From Pelagibacterium luteolum (GTDB lineage: Bacteria > Pseudomonadota > Alphaproteobacteria > Rhizobiales > Devosiaceae), in assembly GCF_900100665.1 (NCBI RefSeq), contig NZ_FNCS01000018.1, positions 1 to 57,831 on the forward strand: a stretch of DNA of 57,831 bases, read 5' to 3'. Below are positions 16,297 to 37,918 of the stretch, piece by piece. The position numbers and the translations under genes are program-made. Every line of letters starts with the position of its first letter. Position 1 is the first letter of the stretch. Below the pieces are notes generated by a model. That model had not been told where the DNA came from, did no database searches, and saw only the letters and a program-made list of their open reading frames with translations.

Positions 16297-16458
16297 TAAC
16301 TTTGCGTTGCGCGCATTTTAAACCGCTCCAAGGGTGGGCTAGTCATTCCAAAAAGGAGTTTGAGCAAGGACAATCCTAGATCGGATACTCGGTCTCAAGG
16401 TTCGGGAAACAGGGCGCAAGCCGCGGCCCATCCCGCCCGGAGAAGAAGGGGAACGTCA

Positions 16459-17709: not shown

Positions 17710-17724
17710 GCGGCATCTTCCCAT

Positions 17725-17764
17725 GGCAGGGCGTCGGGCAACTGCCCTTCGCCCTGCCTTTCTT
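17725..17764 (+). terminator. Strong terminator-like hairpin between binding-protein and permease genes
   Basis: GGCAGGGCG (17725-17733) pairs with CGCCCTGCC (17750-17758), and GGGCA/TGCCC extend the stem inside. TTTCTT follows at once, as in rho-independent terminators. Since the permease gene begins 15 bases further on, it probably acts as a partial terminator that lets the binding protein outnumber the membrane subunits. Confidence 0.75.
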
Positions 17765-17778
17765 AAGCGAGCTCCCTC

Positions 17779-18708
17779 ATGACATCAGTCAAACATGCTT
17801 TTAGGCGATCGTCTGCGATAAGCGTCCTGTTCGACGGTCCGGCGTTCCCGTTTATTATGATCCTACCTGCGCTTTTGATGCTGGGTTTTGTCATAGGGCT
17901 GCCCATGCTGGAGGCCGTTAGACTGAGCTTTGATAGCATCGCTTTGCGCCGACCCGCCGCCGCTGGAACGTACGGCGTTCACAACTATCTGCGCCTCGTT
18001 GCAGACCCCAAAGCTTACGCGGCGCTGGGGTTCTCGGCTCTCTATATGGTCGGAACCGTGATCGGGTCTGTGGGAATGGCGCTGACCGCAGCGCTGCTTA
18101 CCCGACGTGTTATATGGTTCTCTGGCCTGGCACGGGTCGCGTTCCTTTTGCCCTGGACGGTGCCTGCCGTGGTCACTGCCCTGATCTGGGGCGTCATGTA
18201 CGATGGCAATTTTGGGGTAATCAACAGGCTCCTCGACTTCGTGCCGTTCATTGACGGTCAGAATTGGCTGATCGAACGCCAGACCGCGCTTCCCGCGCTC
18301 ATCGTAGCCCAAGTATGGAACGAGTTTCCGGTCGCCTATATCTTTTTTCTCGCCGGCCTCAAAGCCATACCTGATGAACTATATGAAGCGGCACGGATCG
18401 ATCGGGCCAACGCATTCCAGCAGTTTCGACATATCACTTTACCCCATCTCCGCTTCATTATCGCGGTCATTGTCATTCTCCTCATGATCATGGGGTTTAA
18501 GTCTTTTCCCATCATATTCATCCTGACCGGTGGTGGGCCAGCAGGGGCGACCGAAACCCTCACAGTCCTGACCTACAATGCCGCTTTCCGTAGCCTTGAT
18601 TTTAGCTATGCCGCGACGTTGGGCATTTTAGCCGTCCTGGCCTCGGCAATGCTTGTGCTGGGTTATCTGCGGCTTTTGCCGCGCACCGGCCATGGAGACG
18701 TGATGTGA
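17779..18708 (+). CDS. ABC transporter permease, CUT1 type (MalF/UgpA-like)
   Basis: A 309-residue permease with six membrane helices. The EAA loop reads LYEAARIDRANAFQQFRHITLPHL and a C-terminal block GGGPAGATETLTVLTY is typical of MalF/UgpA. It is the first channel subunit of the CUT1 importer and overlaps the next gene by 4 bases (GTGA). It is separated from the binding-protein gene by the hairpin at 17725. Confidence 0.92.
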   Translation: MTSVKHAFRRSSAISVLFDGPAFPFIMILPALLMLGFVIGLPMLEAVRLSFDSIALRRPAAAGTYGVHNYLRLVADPKAYAALGFSALYMVGTVIGSVGMALTAALLTRRVIWFSGLARVAFLLPWTVPAVVTALIWGVMYDGNFGVINRLLDFVPFIDGQNWLIERQTALPALIVAQVWNEFPVAYIFFLAGLKAIPDELYEAARIDRANAFQQFRHITLPHLRFIIAVIVILLMIMGFKSFPIIFILTGGGPAGATETLTVLTYNAAFRSLDFSYAATLGILAVLASAMLVLGYLRLLPRTGHGDVM

Positions 18709-19550
18709 TCCTGGGTCGCGCTGCACCGTTTACTCCCCTGCTGATTATCACTTTGCGCACAATCGCTATCGTTGCACTCGCCATGGTTGCGCTGTTCCCA
18801 CTCTATTGGATGTTGGTGATAGCACTGACACCCACCGGGCTCGGTCGACAAGTGATGACCTTTTTTCCAACCACGCCCACGCTTGAGAACTTCGTTACCC
18901 TCTTTGCAGATCGTCCGATGGCCCGTTGGATTTGGAACTCGATTCTTGTGGCGACGCTCGCTTCGGCGATCTCTCTCGCCTTCGGCACCACGTGCGGCTA
19001 TGCGCTTAGCCGTCTGCGGTTCCGTGGAGCAAACCTATTGCTCATTGCCGTCCTGACCACCCAAATGATGCCAGCGACCAGCATTATTGTACCCCTTTAC
19101 ATGCTGTTTCGCGCATGGGGGCTGCTCGATACCATGCAAGGGATGGTCGTTGGCCATATTTCTCTCGTCGTTCCGCTCGCAATCTGGATGAGTAAAGGCT
19201 TCTTTGATTCCATTCCCACCGATCTTGAGAGTGCGGCGCGCATAGATGGCTGTACCCATGCGGGCGCCTTTTTCCATGTTGCATTGCCGCTCGCAGTTCC
19301 TGGCTTGGCAGCGATTTTCATCTACGGCTTCGTGACCAGTTGGCACGATTTCCTGTTCTCTCGAACTTTAGTCACATCTCAGGAGCTCTGGACTGCCGCC
19401 AACGGCATCGCTTCTTTCCGGGGTGAGTATTTTACGCTGCAGGAATTGCAAATGGCGGCCTCGCTCGTCTTTGCGATACCGGTTGTGGTTGTCTTTTTCG
19501 TCATGCAACGCTGGATCGTGTCCGGTGCGTTGTCTGGCTCAATCCGATAG
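18705..19550 (+). CDS. ABC transporter permease, CUT1 type (MalG/UgpE-like)
   Basis: A 281-residue permease starting with GTG, with GGAG eight bases upstream. It has six membrane helices and the EAA loop [24 protein letters not shown], followed by the [16 protein letters not shown] block typical of MalG/UgpE. It pairs with the preceding permease to make the channel. The ATPase gene starts 7 bases after its stop. Confidence 0.92.
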
Positions 19551-19557
19551 GCTGATT

Positions 19558-20604
19558 ATGGCAAGTGTAGAGTTCAAATCCATCACGAAGCGTTATGATG
19601 CACTCGACGTTCTCAACGACGTGGACATCTCTATTTCCGACGGAGAGTTCGTGGTCTTTGTCGGGCCTTCGGGGTGCGGCAAGTCAACGCTTCTGCGCAT
19701 GCTAGCGGGTCTTGAACCCATCACCGCTGGCTCAATCTCAATCAGCTCAGAAGTGGTCAACGCTCTTCCTCCACGCGACCGCGACATCGCCATGGTCTTC
19801 CAGAACTACGCGCTCTATCCTCATATGAGCGTCGGCCACAATATCGGTTTCCCGCTTCGCATGGTTGGGACCCCGAAACCGGAAATTGAGCGCCGCGTGT
19901 CGGAGGCTGCAGAGATGCTGGGGCTTACCCCGTACCTCGCCCGGCTGCCGCGCGAGCTTTCGGGCGGTCAGCGCCAACGTGTAGCCATGGGGCGCGCCGT
20001 GGTGCGCGAGCCGTCAGTTTTTCTTTTTGATGAGCCGCTGTCGAACCTTGATGCTTCACTTCGCGTCCGCATGCGAGGTGAGATTAAGCGACTGCACCAA
20101 AGGCTCGGAACGACGATGATCTACGTCACACACGATCAAATTGAGGCGATGACGTTGGCAGACCGGATCGTGGTTTTGCGCGGCGGCAAGGTCGAGCAAA
20201 TTGGCACGCCGCTCGAGCTCTACAACTCTCCGGCCAGTCCCTTTGTTGCCCAGTTCATCGGCTCACCGGCCATGAACATTTTCGAGGGGACAATGGACGA
20301 CGAGTGTTTTGTCAGAATCACTGAGACTCGCATTGCGTTGGGCACTCGACCCTCAGGAATATCTTCGGGCGCACCATTGCTTGTCGGAATTCGTCCCCAC
20401 GATGTAGCGCTTGGTGATCCGGGCAGGGGAACGCTTTCGGGCGAACTTCAGCTAGTTGAGGAAATGGGCAATGCTCGGCTACTGACAATACAGGTAGGTG
20501 GAACCTCAGTCCAAATCGAAACCCAACACCAGATAGCTTTACTGCCCGGAGCGACCGTGCACCTCACCATGCCACCTGAAAAGTTGCATATTTTTCCCAA
20601 GTGA
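19558..20604 (+). CDS. ABC transporter ATP-binding protein, CUT1 type (UgpC/MalK-like)
   Basis: A 348-residue ATPase with Walker [10 protein letters not shown], signature [15 protein letters not shown], Walker [12 protein letters not shown] and switch His in [15 protein letters not shown], then a C-terminal OB-fold/TOBE domain ([11 protein letters not shown] to the end). It energises the CUT1 importer. The ATG at 19558 ([16 protein letters not shown]) is chosen because a longer frame from 19423 would lie in the permease gene. amaA follows 108 bases downstream on the same strand and could be read from the same transcript. Confidence 0.93.
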
Positions 20605-20712: not shown

Positions 20713-21999
20713 ATGCTGCAGGATACCAATCACAGCAATCTCTGGCAGGCTAGTGCGCCAACGCCGCCAACAACAACTCCGCTGAGCGAATCTTGCGATG
20801 CTGACGTCGCGATCATTGGCGCGGGTTATACGGGGCTTTCTGCCGCGCTCCACCTCGCAGAATCTGGTCTGCGCCCGATCGTGCTTGAAGCACGGGGGAT
20901 CGGCAATGGCGGGTCGGGACGCAATGTCGGCTTGGTCAACGCCGGCATGTGGGTGATGCCCGAGGACCTCGTTGCCACGCTTGGCGAACGCTGGGGCATG
21001 ACGCTCATAACCGCTTTGGGAAACGGCCCCGCTGCCGTCTTCGATCTCATTGAGCGCCATGGCATTGAGTGCGAAGCTGAGCGAAATGGCACGCTGCATC
21101 TGGCGGTCGGTGCCTCGGGCTATGCTGAACTTGGCGAGCGCGAGCGCCAGTGGCAGGCCCTGGGAGCACCAGTCACTCGCCTTGCCCCCCACGCTGCCGC
21201 GCGCCTGATAGGTTCGGGCGCGTTCGCCGGAGCTCTGCTCGACCGGCGCGCTGGCACCATCCAGCCGCTGGCCTATGCACGAGGGCTTGCTCGTGCAGCC
21301 CAATCTCTAGGTGCTGCGATCCACACCGATTCTCCGGTCACCAAAGCAGCACAGGCGAATGGCAAATGGACGCTCTCGACGCCGTCAGCCACCGTCACAG
21401 CGCCTTGGGTCATCGTGGCCACCAATGCCTATAGTAGTCTCGAGCGCGACTTTCCCTTCGCCTCACAGGACGAAGAGTTGACCATGCTGCCCTTTTTCCA
21501 GATCGCGACCCAACCACTTTCAGACAATATTGCTGGCACCATTTTGCCCGAAAGACAGGGGTGTTGGGACACTCGAACCGTTATGACTTCGCTGCGTAAA
21601 GACAGGGCCGGCCGGCTGATCTTTGGTAGCGTCGGCGCGATCGACGCCTTCTCGCGCCGAACTCAGGTGGCCTTTGCCAGACGAAGTCTGGAAAGCATTT
21701 TCCCTGGGATCGATATTCCGCCTTTTGCCCACGTTTGGCACGGCCAAATCGGAATGACGGGCGACGCTTTGCCCAAATTCCATTCCTACGGACCCAAGGC
21801 GATAGGAGTAAACGGCTTCAATGGTCGTGGCATCGCGCCCGGCACCGTCTTTGGGCGCGCTATGGCTCAGATGATAGCCCATGGCGAGGAGATGATACTC
21901 CCGAACTCTCCAATTGGAAGGGCGCCTTTCGCCCGCGTTCGGACTGCGTTTTACCGAGCCGGTAGCCAGGCACTGCATTTGCTCTCTGGTCGGGTCTAA
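20713..21999 (+). CDS. amaA: FAD-dependent oxidase, L-pipecolate oxidase (AmaA)-like
   Basis: A 428-residue DAO-family flavoprotein. The N-terminal dinucleotide fold reads AIIGAGYTGLSAALHLAES, followed by NGGSGRNVGLVNAGMW, and near the C-terminus NGFNGRGIAPGTVFGR closes the FAD site. These blocks match my memory of Pseudomonas AmaA more closely than glycine or sarcosine oxidases. AmaA oxidises L-pipecolate to Delta1-piperideine-6-carboxylate, in equilibrium with 2-aminoadipate semialdehyde. The call is supported by dpkA, amaB, hglS and ydiJ nearby. A D-amino-acid (AmaD-like) or gamma-glutamylputrescine oxidase is the alternative. GGG sits about nine bases before the ATG. The 3' end overlaps the convergent lysR gene by 4 bases. 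Confidence 0.8.
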   Translation: MLQDTNHSNLWQASAPTPPTTTPLSESCDADVAIIGAGYTGLSAALHLAESGLRPIVLEARGIGNGGSGRNVGLVNAGMWVMPEDLVATLGERWGMTLITALGNGPAAVFDLIERHGIECEAERNGTLHLAVGASGYAELGERERQWQALGAPVTRLAPHAAARLIGSGAFAGALLDRRAGTIQPLAYARGLARAAQSLGAAIHTDSPVTKAAQANGKWTLSTPSATVTAPWVIVATNAYSSLERDFPFASQDEELTMLPFFQIATQPLSDNIAGTILPERQGCWDTRTVMTSLRKDRAGRLIFGSVGAIDAFSRRTQVAFARRSLESIFPGIDIPPFAHVWHGQIGMTGDALPKFHSYGPKAIGVNGFNGRGIAPGTVFGRAMAQMIAHGEEMILPNSPIGRAPFARVRTAFYRAGSQALHLLSGRV

Positions 22000-22961
22000 C
22001 GCCCTAAAGCTTGCGCCTCATCAACGATCCATTCGCGGAAATGGGCAAGAGGGCCATGCTGACCGCGGCCAGCGGGCCAGACAAGGAAATAGCGTTCAGG
22101 ACTTTCCATTGGAGCATTCAGCGCCGGAACCAAGTCGCCCCTATCAAGGTCGGCGGCGATTAAGAAAGTTGGCAGGAGTGCCAGCCCCAGTCCCGATCCC
22201 GCGGCCTGGGCAGCGGTTGCAAATTGATCAAAGAGCATGCCGCGCAGGCGTCCGACCGTGGTGCCGTGCCGACTAAACCAGCGCTCCCAATGATCGGGCC
22301 GGCTCGCGAGGTGCAAAAGGGGCAACTCGACCAGGTCGGCTGCCGATTTCACTGGATGGGTGTTGAAAAAGCTGGGAGCTCCGACGGGCAGTACCATCTC
22401 ACCCATCAACTCGACGCCCTCACTACCGGCCCAAGGCCTATCGCCGAAGTGGATGGCCGCGTCAAACGGGTCGGACTCGAAGTCAAAGGCCGTCAGACGT
22501 GTCGACAGGTTGACGGTGATTCCCTGGTGCAGTTCAAAAAAGCGAGGTAGGCGGGGTGCGAGCCAACGCGTACCAAAGGTGGGCAGAATGGCGAGATTGA
22601 GTGTTCCGCCATGGGGATTTGCGTGCAAGTTCAGCGACGCGGTGCCAATGCGCCGTAGCGCCTCCCCAATCTCACGCGCATAGGCGGCCCCAGCTTCGGA
22701 CAGTCGTACCGTCTGTTTATCGCGGACGAACAGCTGGCACCCAATCTGCTCCTCGAGCAGCCGAATCTGGCGCGAGACCGCGCTTTGTGTGATGGCGAGT
22801 TCTTGGGCAGCTATTGTAAAGCTCTGGTGGCGCGCCGCCGCTTCAAACGCAGTTAGCAAGGACATGGAAGGCAGGAAGCGACGGGGAATAGCCATGGGCT
22901 GTCGTACCGATTTGGACATTTGACGCCCTTCTATCAACATGGGGCTATCTTCGTCATCCAT
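21996..22961 (-). CDS. LysR family transcriptional regulator (GcvA-like)
   Basis: A 321-residue LysR-type regulator whose helix-turn-helix includes QSFTIAAQELAITQSAVSRQ (about residues 44-63), followed by a GcvA-type effector region (LAILPTFGTRWLAPRLPRF). GGGAG six bases before ATG 22961 supports the long start despite an 8-base overlap with the ydiJ gene upstream. It is the last gene of the run amaB-hglS-ydiJ-lysR and converges on amaA, so it is a good candidate to control lysine/pipecolate genes. Confidence 0.9.
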   Translation of the reverse strand: MDDEDSPMLIEGRQMSKSVRQPMAIPRRFLPSMSLLTAFEAAARHQSFTIAAQELAITQSAVSRQIRLLEEQIGCQLFVRDKQTVRLSEAGAAYAREIGEALRRIGTASLNLHANPHGGTLNLAILPTFGTRWLAPRLPRFFELHQGITVNLSTRLTAFDFESDPFDAAIHFGDRPWAGSEGVELMGEMVLPVGAPSFFNTHPVKSAADLVELPLLHLASRPDHWERWFSRHGTTVGRLRGMLFDQFATAAQAAGSGLGLALLPTFLIAADLDRGDLVPALNAPMESPERYFLVWPAGRGQHGPLAHFREWIVDEAQALGR

Positions 22962-25836
22962 TGCTATCTCCCTCGGGCGCGATCGCTCTGGCTAGCACCT
23001 CGATAGGGTGGGGCACGGAGCGGCTAGCAAGGCGCTTAGTCTGGCACCGGCAGGAAAATCCGGTTGCGGCGACGTTTCCTAGTGCAAGTGCCTTGGTCCA
23101 GGACAGATCGAATATGGCCTTAGACATCTCAGCATGTTCGGCCTCATGACCGAAAAGCCCACTCATGCCGCAACAGCCCACATCGCGTGGAGCCATTGTG
23201 ACGCCGAACCGGTCCATTATACGGGCCCATCGCAGGCCCGAGGCCGGATCGGCAGTCCGCTCTGTACAGTGGACCAATAAGGTATGCCTCACACTGTTTA
23301 ATGTTTTCGCTGTAACGCGCGTGTCAATCGCCTCGAGAAACCGGTCTATCGAAATGAGAAAATGGGCGCCCTCATTGCGGACCTGTATCGTCGTTGCTGG
23401 CTCGATTCCCACGATAGGAATGCCTCTTTCCGCGTATGATGCCAGCCCGGCATGGTGGCGGTTTTTGACTCGCTCATAGGCTTTGGAAAAGCCACGCACC
23501 TCAAGCCCTTTACCATTGGCCATGATATCGGCGACCAGGGGCTTAAATCCCAACACCGCCAGTACGCGCGCTGCCGCTACGATTGGTCCGGGATCAAAGC
23601 TCGCGAGAAAGCTATCTGGTACTAAGATGACACTCGCGGCGTCCGTCTGGGACCGCCGGGTCAGCCGTCCGATGCGCGCAGCCCTAAGTTGGGTATCCAA
23701 CGACCGTTCTGCCAATAACGGGATATCTAAAAGGCCAATCGCCCTTGTTGCGGCTTTGCCCAACGATGACCCCAAGAGTTTATTGGCTAGCTTGGGCGCG
23801 CGCCGCGCCAATACCAGCATAGGCTCCATGAAACGCACGCCGTAGTCGCGCAGGGGACGTCTGTGGCTTGCATAGTAGGCATCAAGAAATCGAGACTTCA
23901 TAGTCGGAATGTCGACCTTGACAGGGCACGCTGAGGCGCAAGCCCTGCAGGACAGGCATGTCTCTAGGCTTTCCTTGAGCGCAGCTTCTGTCTGCTGATT
24001 GGACTTTTGTGCCCATGCACGAAAAAGCGCCGCTCGTCCGTTGGGAGATTGGGTCTTGTCGCGGGTTGCTTTGTAAGAGGGACACATGGGCGCATCGGGA
24101 TCCCAATCGTGGCACGCGCCATTGCCATTGCAGGCAATGGCGCTGGCAAACTGCTTTTGCTGAGGCAGCGATACCGTCTCGTCAAGGGCTCCCCGAAATG
24201 GAACCTCATCGATTCTTTCGACTCGCTCGGGACTTCCTTCTGGTGTCGCTAGCTTGCCAGGATTGAGCCTGTTGCCAGGATCAAATACAGCCTTGATCCC
24301 TCTGACAACGGGATAGAGCTCGGGACCGAATATTTCCTCGAGATATTCCCCGCGCACTCCACGTCCATGCTCGCCCCAGAGCAGCCCACCATATGCCCGG
24401 GTCAGCGCGACGACCTCATCGGAGATCGTTCGGATCATCAAGCGATCTGCTGCGTCTGTCATGTCCAGCGTCGGGCGCACATGCAGGCACCCCACATCCG
24501 CGTGGCCAAACATGCCGTAATCGATGCCGTGTCGATCGAGCAGGGCGCGGAACTCAGCAACATATCCGGCCAGCGCCTCCGGCGGCACAGCGGTGTCCTC
24601 GACGAAAGGCACTGCTTTGCGCCGGCCCTCGAGTCCTCCCAAAAGCCCTACCGCCTTCGAGCGCAACGACCAGGCAGCCCGGATCGCCCCTGGCTCGGTC
24701 ACCGCTCGGATCAAGGTGGGTGCGTCGTCGCCCTCAATGTGTCGGGTCATCCAGTGCAGCTTGTTTTCAATTTCCCCGAAGGTTTCCCCGGTTACCTCCA
24801 CGAAATTAACAGCGCCCACCGTGCTCGGAAGTACTCCGAATAACGCACCTAGTTCTAACCACACCGGATCGGTCTGGGCTAGCGCTAGCACCTTATCATC
24901 GAGGATTTCGATCGCTAGGGGATCGGCTTCCACCAGCCGGGGTACATGATGCAGCGCAGCGGTGAAATCCGAATAAAAAACCGCTAGTATGCCGCTGACC
25001 GCTGGCTTGCGGGCCAAACGCAGGGTGATTTTCGAGATAAGTGCTAACGTGCCTTCCGACCCAGCAATGATTTTGCACAGATTGAGCCCACCATCTGCGC
25101 GCAGCGCCTGTTCGAGATTATAACCGGTCAGGCCCCGGTTCATCTTTGGAAACACGGCCGGGAAGTAATCTTTGGAGCCTTCCAGTGCCGCTCGTACTTT
25201 CCGGACGATCTCCCCTAGCCGATCGTCTTGCCGGCACGTTGCTTCGGTCTGAGCACGATCCATGTTGTCGATCGTGATGGCGCTGCCGTCCGCTAGCACG
25301 AGGTCGAGTGCTTCGATATAGTCCGAGGTGCGCCCGTATTGACGCGATCCCTTACCCGAGGCGTCGGTTGAGACCATGCCGCCGATGGTCGCACGCGAGG
25401 ACGTGGAGACCATCGGAGGGAAGAACCAGCCATAGGGCGCGAGGAACGCGTTTAGCTGGTCGAGCACGACGCCCGGCTCCACGCTCACGACTCCTTTTTC
25501 GGCATCGAAGTCTAGGATCGTGCGCATGTGCCGCGAGGTGTCGAGCACCACCCCGGTGGTAAGCGACTGCCCGTTGGTACCCGTGCCTCCTCCCCGTACG
25601 ACTAGCGCTGGGGTATCATTGCCGGACTGGGCTAGCGCCCGGCCAACTGCCTCGATGTCAGCCGTTGAAGTTGGAAAGAGCACCGCGCTTGGCCGGACCC
25701 GATAGATCGAATTGTCGGTCGCGAGCACTTCGCGGGCCGAAAAACTTGTCTCGATGCTGCCAGTAAAACCCTCGTCTTCTACCGCTTGGAGATATCGAGC
25801 GAGGCTGGCCTGCGTCCGCGACAAATGCGGAGTCAC
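22954..25836 (-). CDS. ydiJ: FAD-linked, iron-sulfur D-2-hydroxyglutarate dehydrogenase (YdiJ-like)
   Basis: A 960-residue fusion flavoprotein of the YdiJ type. Residues about 45-230 form a PCMH FAD domain (VVRGGGTGTNGQSL), about 270-530 the FAD-oxidase C domain, then a cysteine-rich region with CLSCRACASACP for an iron-sulfur cluster, and a C-terminal CCG domain (CCGMSGLFGHEAEHAEM). YdiJ oxidises D-2-hydroxyglutarate to 2-oxoglutarate and passes electrons to the respiratory chain. It lies 6 bases after hglS, whose product is D-2-hydroxyglutarate, so the two form consecutive steps. The start is GTG with AGGG four bases upstream. A D-lactate or glycolate oxidase role is less likely in this setting. 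Confidence 0.88.
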   Translation of the reverse strand: MTPHLSRTQASLARYLQAVEDEGFTGSIETSFSAREVLATDNSIYRVRPSAVLFPTSTADIEAVGRALAQSGNDTPALVVRGGGTGTNGQSLTTGVVLDTSRHMRTILDFDAEKGVVSVEPGVVLDQLNAFLAPYGWFFPPMVSTSSRATIGGMVSTDASGKGSRQYGRTSDYIEALDLVLADGSAITIDNMDRAQTEATCRQDDRLGEIVRKVRAALEGSKDYFPAVFPKMNRGLTGYNLEQALRADGGLNLCKIIAGSEGTLALISKITLRLARKPAVSGILAVFYSDFTAALHHVPRLVEADPLAIEILDDKVLALAQTDPVWLELGALFGVLPSTVGAVNFVEVTGETFGEIENKLHWMTRHIEGDDAPTLIRAVTEPGAIRAAWSLRSKAVGLLGGLEGRRKAVPFVEDTAVPPEALAGYVAEFRALLDRHGIDYGMFGHADVGCLHVRPTLDMTDAADRLMIRTISDEVVALTRAYGGLLWGEHGRGVRGEYLEEIFGPELYPVVRGIKAVFDPGNRLNPGKLATPEGSPERVERIDEVPFRGALDETVSLPQQKQFASAIACNGNGACHDWDPDAPMCPSYKATRDKTQSPNGRAALFRAWAQKSNQQTEAALKESLETCLSCRACASACPVKVDIPTMKSRFLDAYYASHRRPLRDYGVRFMEPMLVLARRAPKLANKLLGSSLGKAATRAIGLLDIPLLAERSLDTQLRAARIGRLTRRSQTDAASVILVPDSFLASFDPGPIVAAARVLAVLGFKPLVADIMANGKGLEVRGFSKAYERVKNRHHAGLASYAERGIPIVGIEPATTIQVRNEGAHFLISIDRFLEAIDTRVTAKTLNSVRHTLLVHCTERTADPASGLRWARIMDRFGVTMAPRDVGCCGMSGLFGHEAEHAEMSKAIFDLSWTKALALGNVAATGFSCRCQTKRLASRSVPHPIEVLARAIAPEGDSNG

Positions 25837-25842
25837 GGCGCC

Positions 25843-27240
25843 CTAGCTCGCCCGCGCGCGCGCCGACGCGACACGGGCCATCACCGCGTCGATCGAAGCG
25901 TCCTGCAGCGACTGGTAGAGCGAGAACTCGTCGCGCACGGCGACGCCCAGTGCCTCCTCAAAGACGGCTCGGTTTGAACCGGCTAGGGAGTCGCTCGCCA
26001 AATTGTCCCCAAGGTTGGACTGGAAGATGCCTGCCGCCGACACCGGCAGAAAGTCCTCGTAAACTAGCGGGTCGAAGCCTACATATCCTCTTGCCACAAG
26101 CATATCGATGTCATTCGATAGTCCATCCGGCGCCGCCTTGCCCTCTTCAGTGAGGAAGTAGTGGAAATAGGCAAATCCCTCTGCGCGCAATGCCTCGTAG
26201 TCATCAGGCAAGGGGGCAAAAACTTCCGAAAGCGCTGCCATGTAATCGGCCGCGTTTGATCCGTCAGCCTTGGGTTGGGCGAGCCCACGTGCCTTGTCCA
26301 GTAATTCGTCATATAGCTTGCGCCCTTTAGGGGTCAGCGCTACCCCACGTTGCTCAATCTCGCCAAACCGCGCCGTGTGGTGCCCTGTCACCCGCTCACC
26401 GTTTTTCCCGAGAAAAGCGATCTGCTCCTCGAGCGCTTTGAAGCTCGTCTGACGCAGAAGGATAGGACAGGCACGCGGCGGAGGACCTTCAATCACAGCC
26501 TTAGGAGTGATCCCCCGCTCAGGCATCATGCTCTGCACCTCGTCAATGTCGAGCGTGCGCGGGGTCAGGTGGTTGATGTGGGGGCCCTTAAAGCTTACTA
26601 CATCCGCGATGAGACGATGCGCGTCGTGCAACTTCTTATAAGTCGCCTCCGATACCGTAGCATCTGAATGCCAGCGGAACGTCTCAAGGGCCTCGATGAT
26701 GAACGCTTCAGCATCGGTCTCATTAAGCCCGCCTTCATCCTCGTGTTTGTCGATCAGGGCGCGCACGCCAGGAGTAAAGATGTCCCGCCTTGCAAGAATG
26801 GCTTCCGCCTCAGCCCGCAGGGCCTCGTCTTCGATCAAATCAATTCGCAAGAGGGACGTGAACACCCTAAATGGACTCTGCTTGAGCGCTTCGCCGTCGG
26901 TGGGCCGGAACGCTGTGGAATGAACCGGGATGCCTGCGACCGAAAGGTCGTAATATCCAACAGGCTCCATTCCCATCACCGCGAAGAGCTGTCGAATAGT
27001 TGCCAGCTCACCAGGCTTGCCCAGCCGGATCGCCCCGTGACGCTCCTCCGATATCCGCTCAAGATTGCCAAGCGCCTTGAGCCGGGTCTTCAGATCCGGG
27101 TCACGTGCCAATACGCTATCGTTCACGTCGCGGACTAACTCCATTAGGTTCCCATAAAGTGGAACTTCCAGGCGGTACATTTCTGACATGGCGCGGCAGA
27201 AGCGTCCCCGGATTTCATGGGAAGACAGATGATTAGCCAT
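25843..27240 (-). CDS. hglS: 2-oxoadipate dioxygenase/decarboxylase (HglS/YdcJ, DUF1338)
   Basis: A 465-residue protein of the DUF1338/VOC-like family represented by HglS. HglS uses Fe(II) and oxygen to turn 2-oxoadipate into D-2-hydroxyglutarate with loss of CO2. Likely metal ligands are the histidines in GIPVHSTAFRP and GPHINHLTPRTLD. The length equals the usual family size. GGAGA six bases upstream supports the ATG. It precedes ydiJ by 6 bases and follows amaB by 71, giving the order of steps in the lysine route from aminoadipate to 2-oxoglutarate. Confidence 0.9.
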   Translation of the reverse strand: MANHLSSHEIRGRFCRAMSEMYRLEVPLYGNLMELVRDVNDSVLARDPDLKTRLKALGNLERISEERHGAIRLGKPGELATIRQLFAVMGMEPVGYYDLSVAGIPVHSTAFRPTDGEALKQSPFRVFTSLLRIDLIEDEALRAEAEAILARRDIFTPGVRALIDKHEDEGGLNETDAEAFIIEALETFRWHSDATVSEATYKKLHDAHRLIADVVSFKGPHINHLTPRTLDIDEVQSMMPERGITPKAVIEGPPPRACPILLRQTSFKALEEQIAFLGKNGERVTGHHTARFGEIEQRGVALTPKGRKLYDELLDKARGLAQPKADGSNAADYMAALSEVFAPLPDDYEALRAEGFAYFHYFLTEEGKAAPDGLSNDIDMLVARGYVGFDPLVYEDFLPVSAAGIFQSNLGDNLASDSLAGSNRAVFEEALGVAVRDEFSLYQSLQDASIDAVMARVASARARAS

Positions 27241-27311
27241 TCGATCTCTCCTTGAGAGGCTCGCTCAATAACCGGAATAAATCACCGCGGCGCACCGAAG
27301 TGACAGTCGTT

Positions 27312-28832
27312 CTAGATCTCGAACTTGATCCCTTGAGCTAGCGGCAGTTCGCGGGAATAGTTCACCGTATTGGTTTGGCGACGCATGTATGCCTTCCAAG
27401 CATCAGAACCGCTCTCACGCCCGCCGCCGGTTTCTTTCTCGCCACCGAATGCTCCCCCGATCTCCGCCCCCGAAGGCCCAATGTTGACGTTGGCGATGCC
27501 GCAATCGGAGCCTGCCGCCGAGAGGAAGATTTCGGTCTCCCGCACATCAGTCGAAAAGATGCAGCTCGAAAGCCCCTGCGGCACGTCGTTCTGAAGTATG
27601 ATGGCTTCCTCCAGTGTCCTATAGGTCATCACATAGAGGATTGGCGCGAAGGTCTCGTGCCTTACGATGTCGGTTTGCCGTGGTATCTCGACGATAGCCG
27701 GGTGAACGTAGTAGCCACCCGTGACCCCTTCGGCCTTACCGCCGCCGGTTACCGTTCCGCCCTCGGCTTTAGCCTGCTCGAGCGCTTTCTTCATGCTCGT
27801 ATTGGCATCCGCGTCGATCAGTGGGCCGACCAACGTGCCATGGGCCAGAGGGTCGCCGATCGGTAGCTTAGCGTAGACGCCCTTGAGCCGTTCGACCAGT
27901 TCCTCTCGAACATCCGCGTGTACGATAAGCCGGCGCAGACTGGTGCAGCGCTGTCCGCAAGTGCCGACCGCGGAAAAGACGATGGCCCGCACCGCGTTCT
28001 CGAGATCGGCCGACGGGGCCACGATCATCGCGTTGTTTCCTCCCAGCTCCAGTACGGTTTTTCCGAACCGCTCGGCGACCTTCGGGCCCACGATCTTTCC
28101 CATGCGGGTGGAACCCGTCGCTGAGATCAGGGCAACGTCTCGAGATGTGGTCAACACTTCGCCGATCTCGCCTCCACCAATTGCGACTTGCAGCAGGCCC
28201 TCTGGCGCCTCCCCGAAGCGCTTAACAGCCTTCTCGAAGATTCTGGCGGTCGCAATTGCACTCAGCGGGGTCTTCTCGGAGGGCTTCCAGATCACCGGGT
28301 CGCCGCAAACAATCGCCAGCGCAAAGTTCCAGGCGAAGGGCGCAACGGGAAAGTTGAAGGCGGTGATTACGCCGGCTACGCCCAAGGGATGCCACGTTTC
28401 GCGCATGGTATGCCCAGGGCGCTCAGACGCGATAGTTAGTCCAAATAGCTGCCGTGACTGGCCCACAGCCAAATCGCATATGTCGATCATCTCCTGGACC
28501 TCGCCGAGGCCTTCCTGGAGGATTTTGCCACACTCGAGGGTAACCAGCGCTCCGAGTTCCTCCTTTGCTGTGCGCAGTTCCTCGCCGAACAGTCGGATCA
28601 ACTCGCCCCGGCGGGGGGCAGGCACCAGTTTCCAGGCGTTGAATGCGGATTTCGCTTGGGCGATCATTGCTTGGACATCGCTCACCGAATGAGTCGCCAA
28701 TGACCCCAAAAGAGCGCCGTCGATAGGTGAATTGACTTCTAGCGCCCCGCCGGTCAGGTCGGCATCTGTCAGAAGTGCGGCTGCGAGAATCTCTTTGTGG
28801 GCCATTGAGCGGGTATCCTTGTTGAGAGTCAT
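27312..28832 (-). CDS. amaB: ALDH7-type aldehyde dehydrogenase, L-2-aminoadipate semialdehyde dehydrogenase (AmaB-like)
   Basis: A 506-residue aldehyde dehydrogenase. The catalytic cysteine lies in GTCGQRCTSLRRLIVH, the catalytic Glu in LELGGNNAMIV, and the NAD site in ITAFNFPVAPFAWNFAL and GSTRMGK. These forms are characteristic of the ALDH7/antiquitin group, whose members oxidise 2-aminoadipate semialdehyde (piperideine-6-carboxylate) to 2-aminoadipate with NAD+. It overlaps the aminotransferase gene by 4 bases (ATGA). A second ATG at 28805 with AAGGA ten bases upstream is an alternative start that removes nine residues. Confidence 0.9.
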   Translation of the reverse strand: MTLNKDTRSMAHKEILAAALLTDADLTGGALEVNSPIDGALLGSLATHSVSDVQAMIAQAKSAFNAWKLVPAPRRGELIRLFGEELRTAKEELGALVTLECGKILQEGLGEVQEMIDICDLAVGQSRQLFGLTIASERPGHTMRETWHPLGVAGVITAFNFPVAPFAWNFALAIVCGDPVIWKPSEKTPLSAIATARIFEKAVKRFGEAPEGLLQVAIGGGEIGEVLTTSRDVALISATGSTRMGKIVGPKVAERFGKTVLELGGNNAMIVAPSADLENAVRAIVFSAVGTCGQRCTSLRRLIVHADVREELVERLKGVYAKLPIGDPLAHGTLVGPLIDADANTSMKKALEQAKAEGGTVTGGGKAEGVTGGYYVHPAIVEIPRQTDIVRHETFAPILYVMTYRTLEEAIILQNDVPQGLSSCIFSTDVRETEIFLSAAGSDCGIANVNIGPSGAEIGGAFGGEKETGGGRESGSDAWKAYMRRQTNTVNYSRELPLAQGIKFEI

Positions 28833-30049
28833 GTTAGCGCGGCGGTGGCCGCAGCGATCCTGTCCAGCGCGGCCTCGAGGGCCGTCTGTGCATAGGCGTA
28901 GGAAATTCTGAAATGTCCCGGCGCGCCGAATGCAGTTCCCGGAACCACGGCGACGCCTGCTTCACTGAGATAATAGTCGCAAAGATCGGTATCGGTTTCC
29001 AGTACCGTTCCCTCCGGTGTCCTTCGGCCCAGAAGGGCCGTGCAATCTGGAAAGACGTAAAACGCACCGCGCGGGGTGGGGCAGTCGAGCCCGGAAATCG
29101 CGTTGAGACCGGCCACCACGATATCGCGTCGGCGCCAGAAGTTCTGCCGCCGGCTCTCGAGAATTTCGGTGGGCCCATCGAGTGCCGCAACTGCCGCAGC
29201 CTGAGAGATAGAGGAGGGGGCGGACGTCGCTTGACCCTGCACTGTAGACATCGCGGCGATAAGAGACACGGGTCCAACTCCGAAGCCCAGTCGCCAGCCT
29301 GTCATCGCATGGGATTTGGAGACTCCGTTCACTACCAGCGTGCGCTCGGCAAGTTCGGGCAGGGCTTTAAGCACCGAAATGAAGGAGAAATCGTCGTAAA
29401 CAAGGTGCTCGTAAATCTCATCCGACGTTAGCCCTAGATGAGGATGTCGCTCGAACACTGGCAGGAGGGCGCGGAGTTGCTCCCGGTTATATGCGCCTCC
29501 GGATGGATTGGAGGGCGAATTGAGCAGCAACCATCGAGTGCGGCTGGTCACCGCCGCTTCCATCGCCTCGGGGTTCATTACGAATCCATCCTCACCGCGC
29601 GTTCGCACCTCAACCGGCACCCCGCCGCATATAGCAATGATGTCCACATAGCTCGTCCAGTAGGGCGTAGGTACAATTACCTCGTCGCCCGGCTCGAGCG
29701 TCGCCATCATGGCATTGAATAAGACCTGCTTGGCCCCTGTCGAAGCGATAATTTGATTGGGCTCCACGGCAATGCCTTGCCGGCGGTACCGCGCGACAAT
29801 TGCGGCCTTGAGTGCCGGAGTGCCCGTGTTGGCGGTATATTTAGTTTCGCCACTATCGATTGCCGCTTGTGCCGCGTGCTTGACGAAATCTGGAGTATCG
29901 AAATCGGGCTCGCCGGTCCCCAACGAGATAATGTCTTCTCCCGCCCGCTTGCGCGCCGCTGCCATTTCGCTAATTTTAACGATCAGAGAGACGTCCAGTG
30001 CCCTGACTCGGCTGGCGATCTGTCCAGCATACCCATTCGATATAGTCAT
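28829..30049 (-). CDS. Class I aminotransferase, probable 2-aminoadipate transaminase
   Basis: A 406-residue PLP enzyme of the aspartate aminotransferase I-gamma group. Visible are NSPSNPSGGAYN, TSDEIYEHLVYDDFSF with the PLP-ring Asp and Tyr, and VNGVSKSHAMTGWRLGFG with the Schiff-base lysine; the C-terminal FRISYA holds the carboxylate-binding Arg. Group members transaminate aspartate, aromatic or other amino acids. Coupling to amaB, then hglS and ydiJ, suggests that it converts 2-aminoadipate to 2-oxoadipate. Substrate choice cannot be read from sequence. It is the first gene after a 449-base interval that probably holds the promoter. Confidence 0.85.
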   Translation of the reverse strand: MTISNGYAGQIASRVRALDVSLIVKISEMAAARKRAGEDIISLGTGEPDFDTPDFVKHAAQAAIDSGETKYTANTGTPALKAAIVARYRRQGIAVEPNQIIASTGAKQVLFNAMMATLEPGDEVIVPTPYWTSYVDIIAICGGVPVEVRTRGEDGFVMNPEAMEAAVTSRTRWLLLNSPSNPSGGAYNREQLRALLPVFERHPHLGLTSDEIYEHLVYDDFSFISVLKALPELAERTLVVNGVSKSHAMTGWRLGFGVGPVSLIAAMSTVQGQATSAPSSISQAAAVAALDGPTEILESRRQNFWRRRDIVVAGLNAISGLDCPTPRGAFYVFPDCTALLGRRTPEGTVLETDTDLCDYYLSEAGVAVVPGTAFGAPGHFRISYAYAQTALEAALDRIAAATAALT

Positions 30050-30498
30050 GTTCTGTGCTTTCGGCGACGTGCGCTTTCCGCTTCAGTTGCAACGACTTTT
30101 GCCCACCCGGCAAATGATGTCTTCGAATGAGATCATGACTTGCTGGCATAAGTGATAACTCGAAAAGGAGCTCCAGGCGTCACATGGCGCCTCACCTGCT
30201 AGCAGCGTGGAGGCTACCCCAGATTGATACATTGCACCAACGACGAAGCGGGGCCCATGGGTTTTGACTCGCTCGGATGCGTCCAAGCTCCGTTGTCCCT
30301 CCACATTCGCCAAATGTTAGACAATTCCCGCAACACTTGCATCAGGCCGAGTAGTCTGCGGCTATGAAAAGAAATAGAAGGTTCGACGACAGGTCCGTTC
30401 CCCCCGCCATTTTCCCGATAATTTCCAAACGGCCTTAAAAGTCTCGGTAGTCCGGGTCTTGCTGACATCGTCAGTAAAACGACCGATCAACCGAAATG
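30050..30498. other. Intergenic interval, 449 bases, between xre and the aminotransferase gene
   Basis: No credible coding frame is seen. The interval includes the dyad at 30098-30114 and an 8-base inverted repeat (30461-30468 with 30496-30503) that overlaps the xre stop codon. A promoter for aat-amaB-hglS-ydiJ-lysR is expected here, but no clear -35/-10 pair could be picked. Confidence 0.5.
30098..30114. promoter_or_regulatory. Operator candidate TTTGCC-N5-GGCAAA upstream of aat
   Basis: Perfect 6-bp arms separated by CACCC lie 49 bases upstream of the aminotransferase start. Size and spacing suit a dimeric regulator. No second copy was noticed. Confidence 0.35.
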
Positions 30499-31122
30499 TC
30501 AGCTTTTTAATGGCTCGACGACCCGCGAGCATATCCAAAGCACCTCGGCATCCTCTTCGGAAGCCTTGATGAGGGCGTGTTCCATCGTGCTGTCGAAATA
30601 GCAACTGTCACCCGCCGAGAGCCGGGTAGGTGCATAAAACTGGGTGTGAAGCTCGATCGTGCCTGAAAGCACATACACGAATTCTTCTCCAGGGTGGGAA
30701 AGCATACCGTCAAAGCTCTGGACAGTGTTCGCCTTGATCGTCGCGCGCAGCGGCACGAACTGCTTGTTGGCCAGGTCCGTGCAGAGAAGCTGATAGTCAT
30801 ACTGGCGCGTATTGTGTTGAACGCCATCTCCCGCGCGCGTAACCGTGCGCCGGCCACTCACTGCCGCGGTCTGACGCTCTGAGAAAAGATCTGCCACATC
30901 GACGGCGAGACCCTCCGCAAGACTCAAAATGGTGTCGTATGTCGGGGACATCTGACCATTCTCGATCTTTGAAAGCGTGGACGGCGCCAGCGCACAGAGG
31001 CGGGCCAATTCGTTGAGCGTCAGTCCGCGGCTTTGCCGTAAATGGCGCAGCGTCTCTGCAATCGAATGCTGAGAACGGCGCTGGGTGCGGTTGGTCTGCG
31101 CCGGAGCAAGGGGCTGGTTCAT
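30499..31122 (-). CDS. XRE family transcriptional regulator with cupin domain
   Basis: A 207-residue regulator. Residues about 22-80 form a helix-turn-helix of the XRE type (LTLNELARLCALAPSTLSKI), and residues about 110-200 a single cupin barrel (HPGEEFVYVLSGTIELH) that probably senses a small molecule. Related proteins (PuuR-like) control amine and amino acid catabolism. It is 33 bases downstream of dpkA and upstream of the aminotransferase operon. It is the best candidate to bind the repeated 18-base sites upstream of dpkA; this is inference from position. Confidence 0.9.
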   Translation of the reverse strand: MNQPLAPAQTNRTQRRSQHSIAETLRHLRQSRGLTLNELARLCALAPSTLSKIENGQMSPTYDTILSLAEGLAVDVADLFSERQTAAVSGRRTVTRAGDGVQHNTRQYDYQLLCTDLANKQFVPLRATIKANTVQSFDGMLSHPGEEFVYVLSGTIELHTQFYAPTRLSAGDSCYFDSTMEHALIKASEEDAEVLWICSRVVEPLKS

Positions 31123-31155
31123 GGCTGTCGCCGTTCTATTCGGTTTCTTGAGCGG

Positions 31156-32163
31156 TCACGCTATTGCTAATGCCTTAAGACCTGCAAGGTCTTCAGCGTT
31201 AATGGGTATGCCATTCTGAGCGGCCAAAGCGCGAGTTTCCGCGCGGCGCTGTCCAGGAAGGCGGGAAACCCCAGCAGCCTGCATAGTCGCAATTAGGGTC
31301 TGCGCGCGCAACCCAAAGGGGTTTCCGGCAGCGTAAGAGGGATCGATGAGGAGAATAAGCTGGCCCGTGTGAGGGGTCTGCGCGCCCTTGTGCCCAGACC
31401 AATCAAACTCAAACGAGAAGTGCCCACCGGTGAGAGCCGCGCCGAGGAGTTCCACCATCATCGATATCGATGAGCCCTTGTATCCGCCGAATGTAAGCAA
31501 TGCACCCCCATCCAATACGGCTCTCGCATCTATGGTGGGCTGCCCCTCGCTATCAACCCCTGAGTGAGGCGGAAGCGCCTTTCCCGCGCGCGCAGCGATC
31601 TGCACGTCACCATTCGCCATGGCCGAAGTGGCAAGATCGAAAACGATCGGATCGGCATCTTCGACAGGAGCGGCAAATGCTATCGGATTGGTACCAAATA
31701 CCGCGCTCGTCCCGTCGAACGGCACAGTGCAGGCGAAACTGTTGACCACGCTGAGGGCAATCAAACCGTCCTGAGCAAACGGCTCCACGTCAGGCCACAG
31801 CGCGCTGAGATGATGTGAATTGCGAATCGCGAGGACCGCAACGCCTGTCGTGCGGGCCTTTTGCATCGCAAGTTCGCGCGCCATCGCTAGTGCCGGCTGA
31901 GCGAAGCCATTGCGCGCATCCACGCGACAAAAGGAAGGCGCCGCGTCCTCGATAACAGGCACAGCCGATCCATCGACCCAACCTGTTGCGAGCGAATCCA
32001 CATAGCCGCGCATGCGGAAGATGCCATGGCTCAGCGCACCGTCGCGCTCACACGTAGCGCAGTTTGCCGCGAGAAGCTCCGCAACACCCGCTCGCGTGCC
32101 GTGACGCAAGAAGATTGTCTCGAGAAGCGCCTCTAGCTCTTCATAGGAAATGGTGACAGACAC
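31156..32163 (-). CDS. dpkA: Delta1-piperideine-2-carboxylate/Delta1-pyrroline-2-carboxylate reductase (DpkA-like)
   Basis: A 335-residue Ldh/MDH2-family oxidoreductase. Segments such as ERDGALSHGIFRMRGYV, RNSHHLSALWPDVEPFA, FGTNPIAFAAP, VFDLATSAMANGDVQIA and FGGYKGSSISMMVELLGAAL agree closely with my memory of Pseudomonas DpkA. The enzyme reduces Delta1-piperideine-2-carboxylate to L-pipecolate (and the pyrroline analogue to L-proline) with NADPH. I prefer GTG 32163 because GGAG lies six bases upstream and the resulting N-terminus fits the family; a frame extending to 32244 would run through the operator. It is the first gene of a leftward run with xre. Confidence 0.9.
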   Translation of the reverse strand: MSVTISYEELEALLETIFLRHGTRAGVAELLAANCATCERDGALSHGIFRMRGYVDSLATGWVDGSAVPVIEDAAPSFCRVDARNGFAQPALAMARELAMQKARTTGVAVLAIRNSHHLSALWPDVEPFAQDGLIALSVVNSFACTVPFDGTSAVFGTNPIAFAAPVEDADPIVFDLATSAMANGDVQIAARAGKALPPHSGVDSEGQPTIDARAVLDGGALLTFGGYKGSSISMMVELLGAALTGGHFSFEFDWSGHKGAQTPHTGQLILLIDPSYAAGNPFGLRAQTLIATMQAAGVSRLPGQRRAETRALAAQNGIPINAEDLAGLKALAIA

Positions 32164-32399: not shown

Positions 32400-32493
32400 C
32401 CTTTAGGCGCACTTTTCAGGGGCGTTGAAAGTGCGCAGCGTAGAAATACGCCGGTCAACGAATGACGCCCGTGTGTCGAAAGGACATTCGAGA

Positions 32494-34080
32494 ATGCGCA
32501 TCCGAAACACCTATCGCTTACCGTTCGCAGCGGCACTTCTGTCGTCACTCGTTGCATTCGCTGGCCCTGCCTTCGCGCAGGACTCAGATCTCATCGTCAA
32601 CAGCGCCGTGGCGCCGAGCACACTAGATCCTGCCTGGGCATGTGGGCTGCAGGAAATCAGCTTCATTCAGAACTTCTACGTCCGGCTGGTCCAGTATGGG
32701 ACGGCCGAAGGCCCCGACGGCACTCGGGTCGTCGATTTCGCCACAACTGAACCTTATCTCGCCGAGTCCTGGGACATAAGTGACGACGGGCTGGTCTACA
32801 CCTTCCACCTCAAGGACGGATATACGTTTGCGAGCGGCAATCCGGTCGACGCAGAGGCAGTGCGCTATTCGTTTCAGCGCGTGCTCGATATGGCAGGTTG
32901 TGGGCGTTTCTTCCTGACTGATGGTCACATCGATCCCGTGATCATTGAGGCGATCGAGGTCATTGACCCGCTCACCGTCGCCATCACGCTCAACAAGCCC
33001 AATGGCAACATGCTGGGCGATCTGGCAACGCATGCGGCGTCGATCGTCGATCCGTCGGTTGTTGAAGCCAATGGCGGGGTAGTGGCCGGCCAGCCAAACG
33101 AATTTATGGCTGCCAACGTGACTGAGTCCGGTCCATTTCTCCTTGAATCCTACACTGCCAACCAGAGTGCCCGCATGGTCGCAAATCCCGAGTTTGCGGG
33201 AGATGCGCCAGCTTCCGAGGCCATCAACGTCAACTGGATCACGGCTGCGCCTACACTTTTGCTTCAGGCTCGCACCGGGCAGGCGGACATTACTTTCGGT
33301 CTTGCAAAGCAGGCGGTGACGACGCTCGCAGACAACTCTGGCACGCGCGCTATCGCCTATACCAACCCTTTCGTGCAGCAGATGATGCTCCCCAACACCA
33401 AGGCGCCGTGGGATAACCCCGTGTTCCGCGAGGCGGTAGCCCATGCTGTGCCCTACGAGGACATCGTCGAGCGCGTGGCCTACGGTTACGGCACGCTCTA
33501 TTACGGGCCAATTCCTCCGAGCTTGCCTGGGTTCAACGCTGAGTTGAGCCAGCCCATCCCGTTTGATCTGGATCGGGCCAGGGAATTGATCGCCGAGAGC
33601 GGGGTCGCCACTCCGGTCGATGTCGAGGTGATGATCCAGGAAGGCGACGCGACCCAACAACAGCTCGCAACGATCCTGCAGAGCACATGGGCCGATCTGG
33701 GCATCAATCTCAACATTCGCGTCGCCCCTGCGGCTGAATTCCAGGACCTCTCGCAAAGTCACGCAGTGCAATCGCTCATGCGGCTCGATGGTCCCGGTGT
33801 TTTCGAGGTCGGTTACTATTGGGGTTACGACGTGATCTGCGACAACTCCAACAACCTCACCGAGTACTGCAATCCCGAGGTCGATGAACTCGTCGACCAG
33901 TTGCGCGCGTCGTCCGACGAGGCGGAGCGCCAGGGCATTATGGATCAGGTGACCGAAATCTGGCGGGCTGAATATCCCAAGATTCTCTTCTTTGAGGATC
34001 AGCCCGTCGTGGTTCTGAGCGACGCCGTGACTGAGTTCACGTTCTCGCCGCTGCCCGACTACCGGTACTGGGCAAAATAG
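32494..34080 (+). CDS. ABC transporter substrate-binding protein, family 5 (DppA/OppA-type)
   Basis: A 528-residue periplasmic protein with a Sec signal (cleavage after PAFA, about residue 28). Family 5 landmarks are APSTLDPAWACG near the mature start, YLAESWDISDDGLVYTFHLKDG, and DVEVMIQEGDATQQQ in the C-terminal lobe. It captures peptides or other small, often amide-bearing, ligands for the Dpp-type permeases downstream. ATG 32494 is preferred because it starts the signal peptide and has AAAGGA upstream; a TTG at 32425 does not. Linkage to hyuAB suggests a cyclic amide or acyl amino acid ligand. Confidence 0.92.
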   Translation: MRIRNTYRLPFAAALLSSLVAFAGPAFAQDSDLIVNSAVAPSTLDPAWACGLQEISFIQNFYVRLVQYGTAEGPDGTRVVDFATTEPYLAESWDISDDGLVYTFHLKDGYTFASGNPVDAEAVRYSFQRVLDMAGCGRFFLTDGHIDPVIIEAIEVIDPLTVAITLNKPNGNMLGDLATHAASIVDPSVVEANGGVVAGQPNEFMAANVTESGPFLLESYTANQSARMVANPEFAGDAPASEAINVNWITAAPTLLLQARTGQADITFGLAKQAVTTLADNSGTRAIAYTNPFVQQMMLPNTKAPWDNPVFREAVAHAVPYEDIVERVAYGYGTLYYGPIPPSLPGFNAELSQPIPFDLDRARELIAESGVATPVDVEVMIQEGDATQQQLATILQSTWADLGINLNIRVAPAAEFQDLSQSHAVQSLMRLDGPGVFEVGYYWGYDVICDNSNNLTEYCNPEVDELVDQLRASSDEAERQGIMDQVTEIWRAEYPKILFFEDQPVVVLSDAVTEFTFSPLPDYRYWAK

Positions 34081-34102
34081 ACTCTTCCAGGAGAAAGAAC
34101 GA

Positions 34103-36124: not shown

Positions 36125-36125
36125 A

Positions 36126-37850: not shown

Positions 37851-37859
37851 GACGATTTG

Positions 37860-37888: not shown

Positions 37889-37918
37889 TTCAGCCTAAGC
37901 GATGACAGGAAGAATTTG

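Follow-up and report, generated by a model that had tools for sequence, protein, structure and literature searches.

What route do the clustered amino acid genes of Pelagibacterium luteolum encode, and do they form one unit? A stretch of 57,831 nucleotides from this bacterium (NZ_FNCS01000018.1, contig C23 of a 4.3-Mb genome; hereafter the window) carries six genes that an initial annotation read as one clustered route from Delta1-piperideine-2-carboxylate (P2C) through L-pipecolate and 2-oxoadipate to 2-oxoglutarate: DpkA, AmaA, AmaB, an aminotransferase (AT), HglS and YdiJ, with two local regulators. A check of the window's open reading frames (ORFs) found all six, and the two regulators between them, present and stop-free where they had been placed. 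Their grouping is a different matter. The window probably holds two independently conserved gene sets side by side, a pipecolate set and a DpkA-HyuAB-Opp set, so that five of the six enzymes stand together as claimed while DpkA falls to the other set.

The predicted pipecolate operon and AmaA

The core of the first set consists of the following genes; the enzyme activities given here and below are predicted from family membership.

20713..21999, plus strand: AmaA, L-pipecolate oxidase (flavin adenine dinucleotide, FAD; DAO family), after a MalE-type ATP-binding cassette (ABC) transporter
21996..22961, minus strand: LysR-family regulator, last gene of the AT-AmaB-HglS-YdiJ-LysR operon (Pfam LysR domains)
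22954..25836, minus strand: YdiJ-type D-2-hydroxyglutarate dehydrogenase (FAD and 4Fe-4S; best model NF049975, and Pfam)
25843..27240, minus strand: HglS, 2-oxoadipate dioxygenase/decarboxylase (DUF1338, PF07063; NF049974; 6w1g)
27312..28832, minus strand: AmaB, piperideine-6-carboxylate / 2-aminoadipate semialdehyde dehydrogenase (ALDH7 type; NF050084)
28829..30049, minus strand: class I aminotransferase (AT, AatB-like), putative 2-aminoadipate aminotransferase, first operon gene (6f35)

By spacing, AT-AmaB-HglS-YdiJ-LysR form a minus-strand operon (30049-21996), in which AT and AmaB overlap by 4 bp and YdiJ and LysR by 8 bp, the remaining gaps being 6 and 71 bp. AmaA, on the opposite strand, starts 108 bp after the ATPase gene of the ABC transporter and ends 4 bp inside the LysR gene. 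The pipecolate set would thus comprise this operon and an opposed ABC-transporter operon that ends in AmaA and also holds a putative reductase of the OCD family. AmaA would convert L-pipecolate to Delta1-piperideine-6-carboxylate, AmaB the open semialdehyde to 2-aminoadipate, AT 2-aminoadipate to 2-oxoadipate, HglS 2-oxoadipate to D-2-hydroxyglutarate, and YdiJ D-2-hydroxyglutarate to 2-oxoglutarate. YdiJ is the last enzyme of the P. putida D-lysine (AMA) pathway.

HglS and AmaB passed the cut-offs of their NCBIfam models, HglS with 735.2 bits against 550 (NF049974) and AmaB with 801 bits against 730 (NF050084, L-piperidine-6-carboxylate dehydrogenase). HglS also matched the solved sequence 6w1g at 547.4 bits, and its residues aligned to His70, Arg74, His226 and Glu294 of the solved enzyme are all identical; we take positions 70, 226 and 294 to be the HHE triad. 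The available excerpts of the HglS study describe an HHE metal triad, the substrate residue Arg74 and the conversion of 2-oxoadipate to D-2-hydroxyglutarate (PMC7286885). The solved sequences closest to AmaB were 6dbb, 6rtr and 10fm, followed by antiquitin/ALDH7A1 entries. The top model for AT was 'aspartate transaminase' (500.9 bits, below the cut-off of 617) and its closest solved relative aspartate aminotransferase B (AatB; 6f35, 495.6 bits); we infer 2-aminoadipate as its substrate. The domains of YdiJ (Pfam FAD_binding_4, FAD-oxidase_C and Fer4) fit a D-2-hydroxyglutarate dehydrogenase. Two scores weigh against these assignments: AmaA reached 413.9 bits with the best of 36 models, the L-pipecolate oxidase 'exception' model NF050086 (cut-off 600), and YdiJ 1032 bits with the best of 13, NF049975 (cut-off 1350).

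A tree of 60 rows, rooted at the midpoint and with no row left out for length, places AmaA more closely. A 100/100 branch splits 50 rows, including the window and Pseudomonas AmaA, from ten DAO paralogues. This group is wider than the proven pipecolate oxidases, because Pseudomonas and Acinetobacter AmaA form a separate 100/100 group of nine inside it and 17 of the 50 rows are labelled as unlinked to HglS or AmaB. The labels were set by hand: L144 and L148 were entered as HglS-linked, with AmaA and HglS on separate contigs in the first (genome G016) and about 21 kb apart in the second (G010), and L239 and L151 are the same gene. None of the proteins on whose placement the initial annotation had staked its reading fell outside the AmaA, ALDH7, HglS and DpkA clades, as judged from the tree for AmaA, from both score and tree for DpkA, and from score only for HglS and AmaB.

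The arrangement recurs in other genomes. GTDB genomes gave 164 HglS loci, of which we read the best 80 (12 of them with shortened flanks), using identity and coverage limits chosen by hand; the ORF caller applies a codon-position G+C filter that cost some genes (e.g., HglS in L165), so gene orders may have gaps. AmaA occurred in 38 of the 80 loci, AmaB in 33, AT in 11 and YdiJ in 8. All four accompanied HglS in four loci, three of them did so in eight more, and 39 loci held none. LysR homologues (at least 40% identity) were found in 21 of the 80, and AT adjoined HglS in 11 of the 21 loci that we labelled alphaproteobacterial by their record titles and in 0 of the 59 others. The four complete loci, from P. 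montanilacus (L002), UBA3584 (L004) and Aureimonas (L021, L047), hold all five core enzymes together as the window does; three of the four have a LysR homologue, none holds DpkA, and the Aureimonas gene orders are unlike the window's. Pelagibacterium montanilacus (G004), with HglS 84% and AmaA 82% identical, has the window's order throughout: class V, ABC-A, YjgF, OCD, LysR, ABC-B, AmaA, LysR, YdiJ, HglS, AmaB, AT. Across an order-level sample of 327 genomes, with overlaps counted by eye and E-value limits chosen by hand, HglS was present in 20 and AmaA in 43, and 13 had both (2.6 expected; hypergeometric p 2.4e-8, uncorrected for kinship and with the window's own genome included). The core thus represents a known pathway whose arrangement recurs, and family scores, gene spacing, the AmaA tree and recurrence lend good support to the L-pipecolate to 2-oxoglutarate part of the annotated route (AmaA, AmaB, AT, HglS, YdiJ).

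In P. putida, according to the available portions of two sources, D-lysine passes through P2C to L-pipecolate and on to 2-aminoadipate (PMC6034422, PMC12930750). The enzymes of that AMA pathway are like the window's from L-pipecolate onward. The initial annotation had described the Pseudomonas genes as spread over several loci, which holds for DpkA, on another contig in the genome of locus L029, but not for AmaA, AmaB, LysR and HglS, which P. putida-group loci such as L029 also cluster, within about 5.5 kb. The window differs in that its operon also holds AT and YdiJ, in that DpkA lies next door but in another module, and in that no first enzyme was recognised nearby. In lysine breakdown by Phaeobacter inhibens, L-pipecolate and 2-aminoadipate are labelled intermediates and a candidate pipecolate oxidase gene is reported; the scheme there ends in glutaryl-CoA, whereas the window's route is predicted to reach 2-oxoglutarate via HglS, a name with no occurrence in that paper (PMC5653290).

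DpkA and its own gene neighbourhood

Upstream of AT the window continues as follows.

30153..30508, no strand: synteny switch from the pipecolate operon to the DpkA module (blastn)
30499..31122, minus strand: HTH/cupin regulator assigned to the DpkA module (Pfam HTH and Cupin_2)
31156..32163, minus strand: DpkA-family cyclic imine reductase (Ldh_2; 1wtj)
32425..41780, plus strand: rest of the DpkA module, namely SBP_bac_5, HyuA, HyuB, two Opp permeases and two Opp ATPases (Pfam)

Judged by its sequence, DpkA is a real DpkA-family imine reductase. It scored 431.6 bits against 1wtj, a solved P2C reductase that we take to come from P. syringae, with 202 of 331 aligned residues identical (61%) and the next entry at 132.7 bits; in NCBIfam it matched only other Ldh_2 models, below cut-off. 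Its start codon is GTG, and the longest ORF would begin further upstream, at 32244. The sequence does not decide between P2C and pyrroline-2-carboxylate as substrate, because near copies lie in hydroxyproline clusters.

The partners of DpkA in other genomes set it apart from the pipecolate genes. In seven relatives (G001, G007, G008, G009, G011, G012 and G018; loci L083-L088 and L090 of 29 read), DpkA is likewise followed by the HTH/cupin gene and faces the SBP5 gene, and in all six of these loci read at 20 kb HyuA, HyuB, OppC, OppB and OppDF come next, in the same order from SBP5 to the first ATPase. Five of the seven (G001, G007, G008, G011 and G018) have no HglS match, G011 being 84% complete; in G009 DpkA and an intact HglS share a contig, on which some 0.6 Mb or more would separate them even if it were circular, and G012 has the two on separate contigs. 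At E below 1e-8, DpkA was absent from all 80 HglS loci, 12 of which have shortened flanks. DpkA was found in 9 of the 327 order-level genomes (E 1e-80), and its overlap with the 20 HglS genomes was one, the window's own.

A break in synteny lies between the two sets. In blastn comparisons, the match to P. montanilacus stops near 30152, and that to the relatives carrying the DpkA module sets in near 30509, barely within the HTH/cupin gene. The gap from AT to that gene is 449 bp, as against 6 and 71 bp inside the operon. A promoter and terminator scan of 29900-32700 gave no excess over shuffles.

In the DpkA tree, which was built from 35 of 44 extracted family sequences and has a number of long branches, the window protein falls together with the module DpkAs of G007, G011 and G012 in a 99/94 group. 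A wider 100/98 group adds both G001 copies, one of them outside any module, and a 99/96 group of nine, with an order that is partly open, includes the window, L131, L126 and L089. Seven DpkAs of the pseudomonad type make up a separate 100/99 group. In L131, L126 and L130 (which holds the L089 gene), DpkA homologues 68-70% identical to the window's lie beside trans-3-hydroxy-L-proline dehydratases (642.6, 644.1 and 641.1 bits; cut-off 550) and not beside AmaA or HglS. L131 belongs to the window's own genome (G000:C14:308500-328400), where this second DpkA is also accompanied by a cis-3-hydroxy-L-proline dehydratase (877.1 bits, cut-off 700).

From these comparisons DpkA and the HTH/cupin regulator seem to belong to a separately conserved module and not to the pipecolate unit; our reason for leaving DpkA out of the pipecolate cluster is its pattern of conservation and not its chemistry. 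Both of the local regulators described initially exist, but only LysR can be counted with the pipecolate genes, the HTH/cupin gene standing beside DpkA in seven relatives. The proposal that the neighbouring DpkA carries P2C to L-pipecolate finds no support in the same evidence: its partners are HyuA, HyuB and Opp, it is missing from the 80 HglS loci read, and its nearest other copies sit in hydroxyproline clusters. The best models for HyuA and HyuB were caprolactamase subunits, at 422 and 219 bits with cut-offs of 1000. The second set (30499-41780) may be a transport and ring-opening module for another cyclic amino acid, and its DpkA might still reduce P2C as a side activity.

The left-hand unit and the source of piperideine-2-carboxylate

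Six features precede AmaA on the same strand.

8573..9835, plus strand: class V pyridoxal phosphate (PLP) enzyme, head of the left-hand ABC/OCD unit (weak SufS and EgtE matches)
9832..13850, plus strand: ABC transporter A (ABC-A), with a PotF/PotD-like binding protein, two permeases and an ATPase (Pfam; NCBIfam below cut-off)
13847..14320, plus strand: YjgF/Rid family protein (Pfam PF14588)
14335..15309, plus strand: OCD/mu-crystallin family protein, candidate Delta1-piperideine/pyrroline-2-carboxylate reductase (PRK06141 score)
15340..16245, plus strand: LysR-family regulator B (Pfam)
16360..20604, plus strand: ABC transporter B (ABC-B), upstream of AmaA, with a MalE-like binding protein (NCBIfam below cut-off), two permeases and a MalK-like ATPase (Pfam)

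Among the window genes scanned with NCBIfam and Pfam, no enzyme from lysine to P2C was recognised, in agreement with the earlier remark that the first step is not obvious. The class V PLP enzyme at 8573, offered then as a possible first enzyme, finds no support in its matches: its best models, the SufS cysteine desulfurase and EgtE, score far below cut-off, and the solved matches listed (best 60 of 96) are desulfurases, lyases and similar enzymes, none named for lysine. A D-amino-acid-dehydrogenase-like gene near Pseudomonas dpkA has a 47% homologue on another contig (G000:C37:77791-79020).

The reductase step has a candidate within the left-hand unit. The OCD protein scored 318.1 bits with PRK06141, a bifunctional pyrroline-2-carboxylate/P2C reductase model, just under the cut-off of 322. 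We considered a lysine cyclodeaminase, which would take lysine straight to pipecolate, and discarded it, since solved enzymes of that kind reached 77.8 bits, whereas 7rbp scored 197.2 and a Delta1-pyrroline-2-carboxylate reductase 102.2; a ketimine reductase is the more plausible identity. OCD and AmaA share one syntenic unit in P. montanilacus and G016, and an OCD homologue of 47-48% identity directly adjoins AmaA in G009, G010 and G012. ABC-B and AmaA keep the same order in P. montanilacus, with ABC-B 79-90% identical; ABC-A is syntenic in G004, G009, G010, G016 and G064, and LysR B in the first four of these, which also keep the class V gene. G016 holds together MR_MLE, LysR, class V, ABC-A, OCD, LysR, ABC-B, AmaA and LysR, with HglS-AmaB on another contig. 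The pipecolate unit thus reaches leftward through two ABC transporters and the OCD candidate, a gene not listed in the initial annotation. If P2C feeds the pipecolate set, OCD (14335) would be the likelier linked reductase.

Three observations count against so close a link. OCD, ABC-A and ABC-B occur in G064 with no AmaA in the stretch read. OCD keeps other partners, again with no AmaA in the stretch read, in G084 and G126: in the former (L221, contig C53) the class V PLP and OCD genes are adjacent and divergent and a 661-residue ORF follows OCD, and in the latter (L189) OCD is followed by an OYE-type flavoenzyme and an MR_MLE gene. Across the 327 genomes the association of OCD with HglS is weak (10 of 20, 6.6 expected, p 0.08), and a strict partnership of the two is not shown. 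We propose OCD as the pathway's P2C reductase no more firmly than as a candidate, because it also occurs without AmaA and with other partners.

G009, another Pelagibacterium genome, further carries the window's left unit in a copy of 91-100% identity (L137, L142). Matches there are limited to residues 1-39 of AmaA and 149-465 of HglS; elsewhere that genome has an HglS cluster that is complete and more divergent. The left-unit copy could be a transferred, decaying one.

The same genes allow another reading of the left-hand unit, in which class V, ABC-A, YjgF, OCD and ABC-B import and open some other nitrogen compound, such as a pipecolate that is hydroxylated or linked to a sugar, AmaA takes part in that route, and AmaB, AT, HglS and YdiJ finish a shared lower part. 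G016 and G064 retain OCD, ABC-A and ABC-B together with a gene of the MR_MLE sugar-acid-dehydratase-like kind, the binding protein is of the MalE type, and a YjgF protein would fit an imine-forming step. In G009, G010 and G012, however, the OCD homologue is a neighbour of AmaA and the stretch read contains no MR_MLE gene; we regard this alternative as unlikely.

One route or two gene sets

A single six-enzyme route would require DpkA to be a working P2C reductase whose arrival beside the operon was selected because it completed the pathway. Its identity to the solved P2C reductase, its location on the strand of AT, 1.1 kb upstream of that gene, and the naming of P. putida DpkA (PP3591) for this step in the excerpted sources (PMC6034422, PMC12930750) all speak for this. 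The HyuAB-Opp partners in relatives, the 0 of 80 HglS loci, the 449-bp gap with its synteny break, and the trans-3-hydroxyproline dehydratases beside the nearest other DpkA copies speak against it, and we judge it distinctly improbable.

Several observations cut the other way, against two separate sets. The module DpkAs do not form one clade: the copies of G018 and of G255 and G162 fall outside the group of nine, and the deep forks are open. G255 and G162, from another family, have HTH/cupin, Opp, DpkA and HyuAB in a different order, with HyuAB 64-71% identical and the transporter genes only 27-45% identical to those of the DpkA module. DpkA of 60-65% identity is present in 10 of 32 HglS genomes searched, including all eight named Pseudomonas, so an unlinked DpkA can serve the route. 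In G218 (L182, contig C70) an Ldh_2 protein of 39% identity, whose nearest solved sequence is 1wtj (204.6 bits), adjoins AmaB-AmaA-LysR, so a pipecolate cluster can include a reductase of this type. With these points weighed, we still favour two independently conserved sets, the pipecolate genes and the DpkA-HyuAB-Opp module.

Two further readings appear very unlikely. The DpkA-HyuAB-Opp set might be an undescribed route for importing a lactam, hydantoin or small-peptide form of a cyclic amino acid, whose ring a caprolactamase-like HyuAB would open and whose imine would pass to DpkA, the product feeding the neighbouring pipecolate operon; we think there is little chance of this. Hardly more credible is that the AmaA homologue is a different FAD amine oxidase in a cluster degrading 2-aminoadipate or its semialdehyde and not pipecolate: the score of 413.9 bits against 600 and the separate contigs of AmaA and HglS in G016 would suit it, but the AmaA tree groups the window with Pseudomonas AmaA, 13 of the 20 HglS genomes have AmaA, and in the available part of the Phaeobacter inhibens study curing of the plasmid with the candidate pipecolate oxidase gene, which we liken to AmaA by description only, led to pipecolate build-up (PMC5653290).

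Elsewhere in the window, 1499-7376 holds genes for a TRAP transporter (DctM, DctQ, DctP), a NanR-like regulator, an N-acetylneuraminate-lyase-family aldolase (296.7 bits, cut-off 281) and an MR_MLE galactonate-dehydratase-like protein, which looks like a sugar-acid or sialic-acid set. Carboxyltransferase-domain genes (CT_C_D, CT_A_B), presumably of the PxpB/PxpC 5-oxoprolinase kind, lie at 46275-47923, not far from the HyuAB genes. At the contig's very end (56718-57767) is a protein with HTH and integrase-core (rve) domains, probably an insertion-sequence transposase.

The literature searched, mostly without the genus name, yielded no account of this Pelagibacterium cluster, a weak sign that none exists. 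The locus offers a single-locus, five-enzyme version of the route from pipecolate to 2-oxoglutarate in Hyphomicrobiales. Without a test, the adjoining DpkA should not be counted in the pathway, and its HyuAB-Opp module is uncharacterised. An OCD-family reductase emerges instead as the linked candidate for P2C reduction, and the locus is a handy place to study AmaA, YdiJ and a 2-aminoadipate aminotransferase together.

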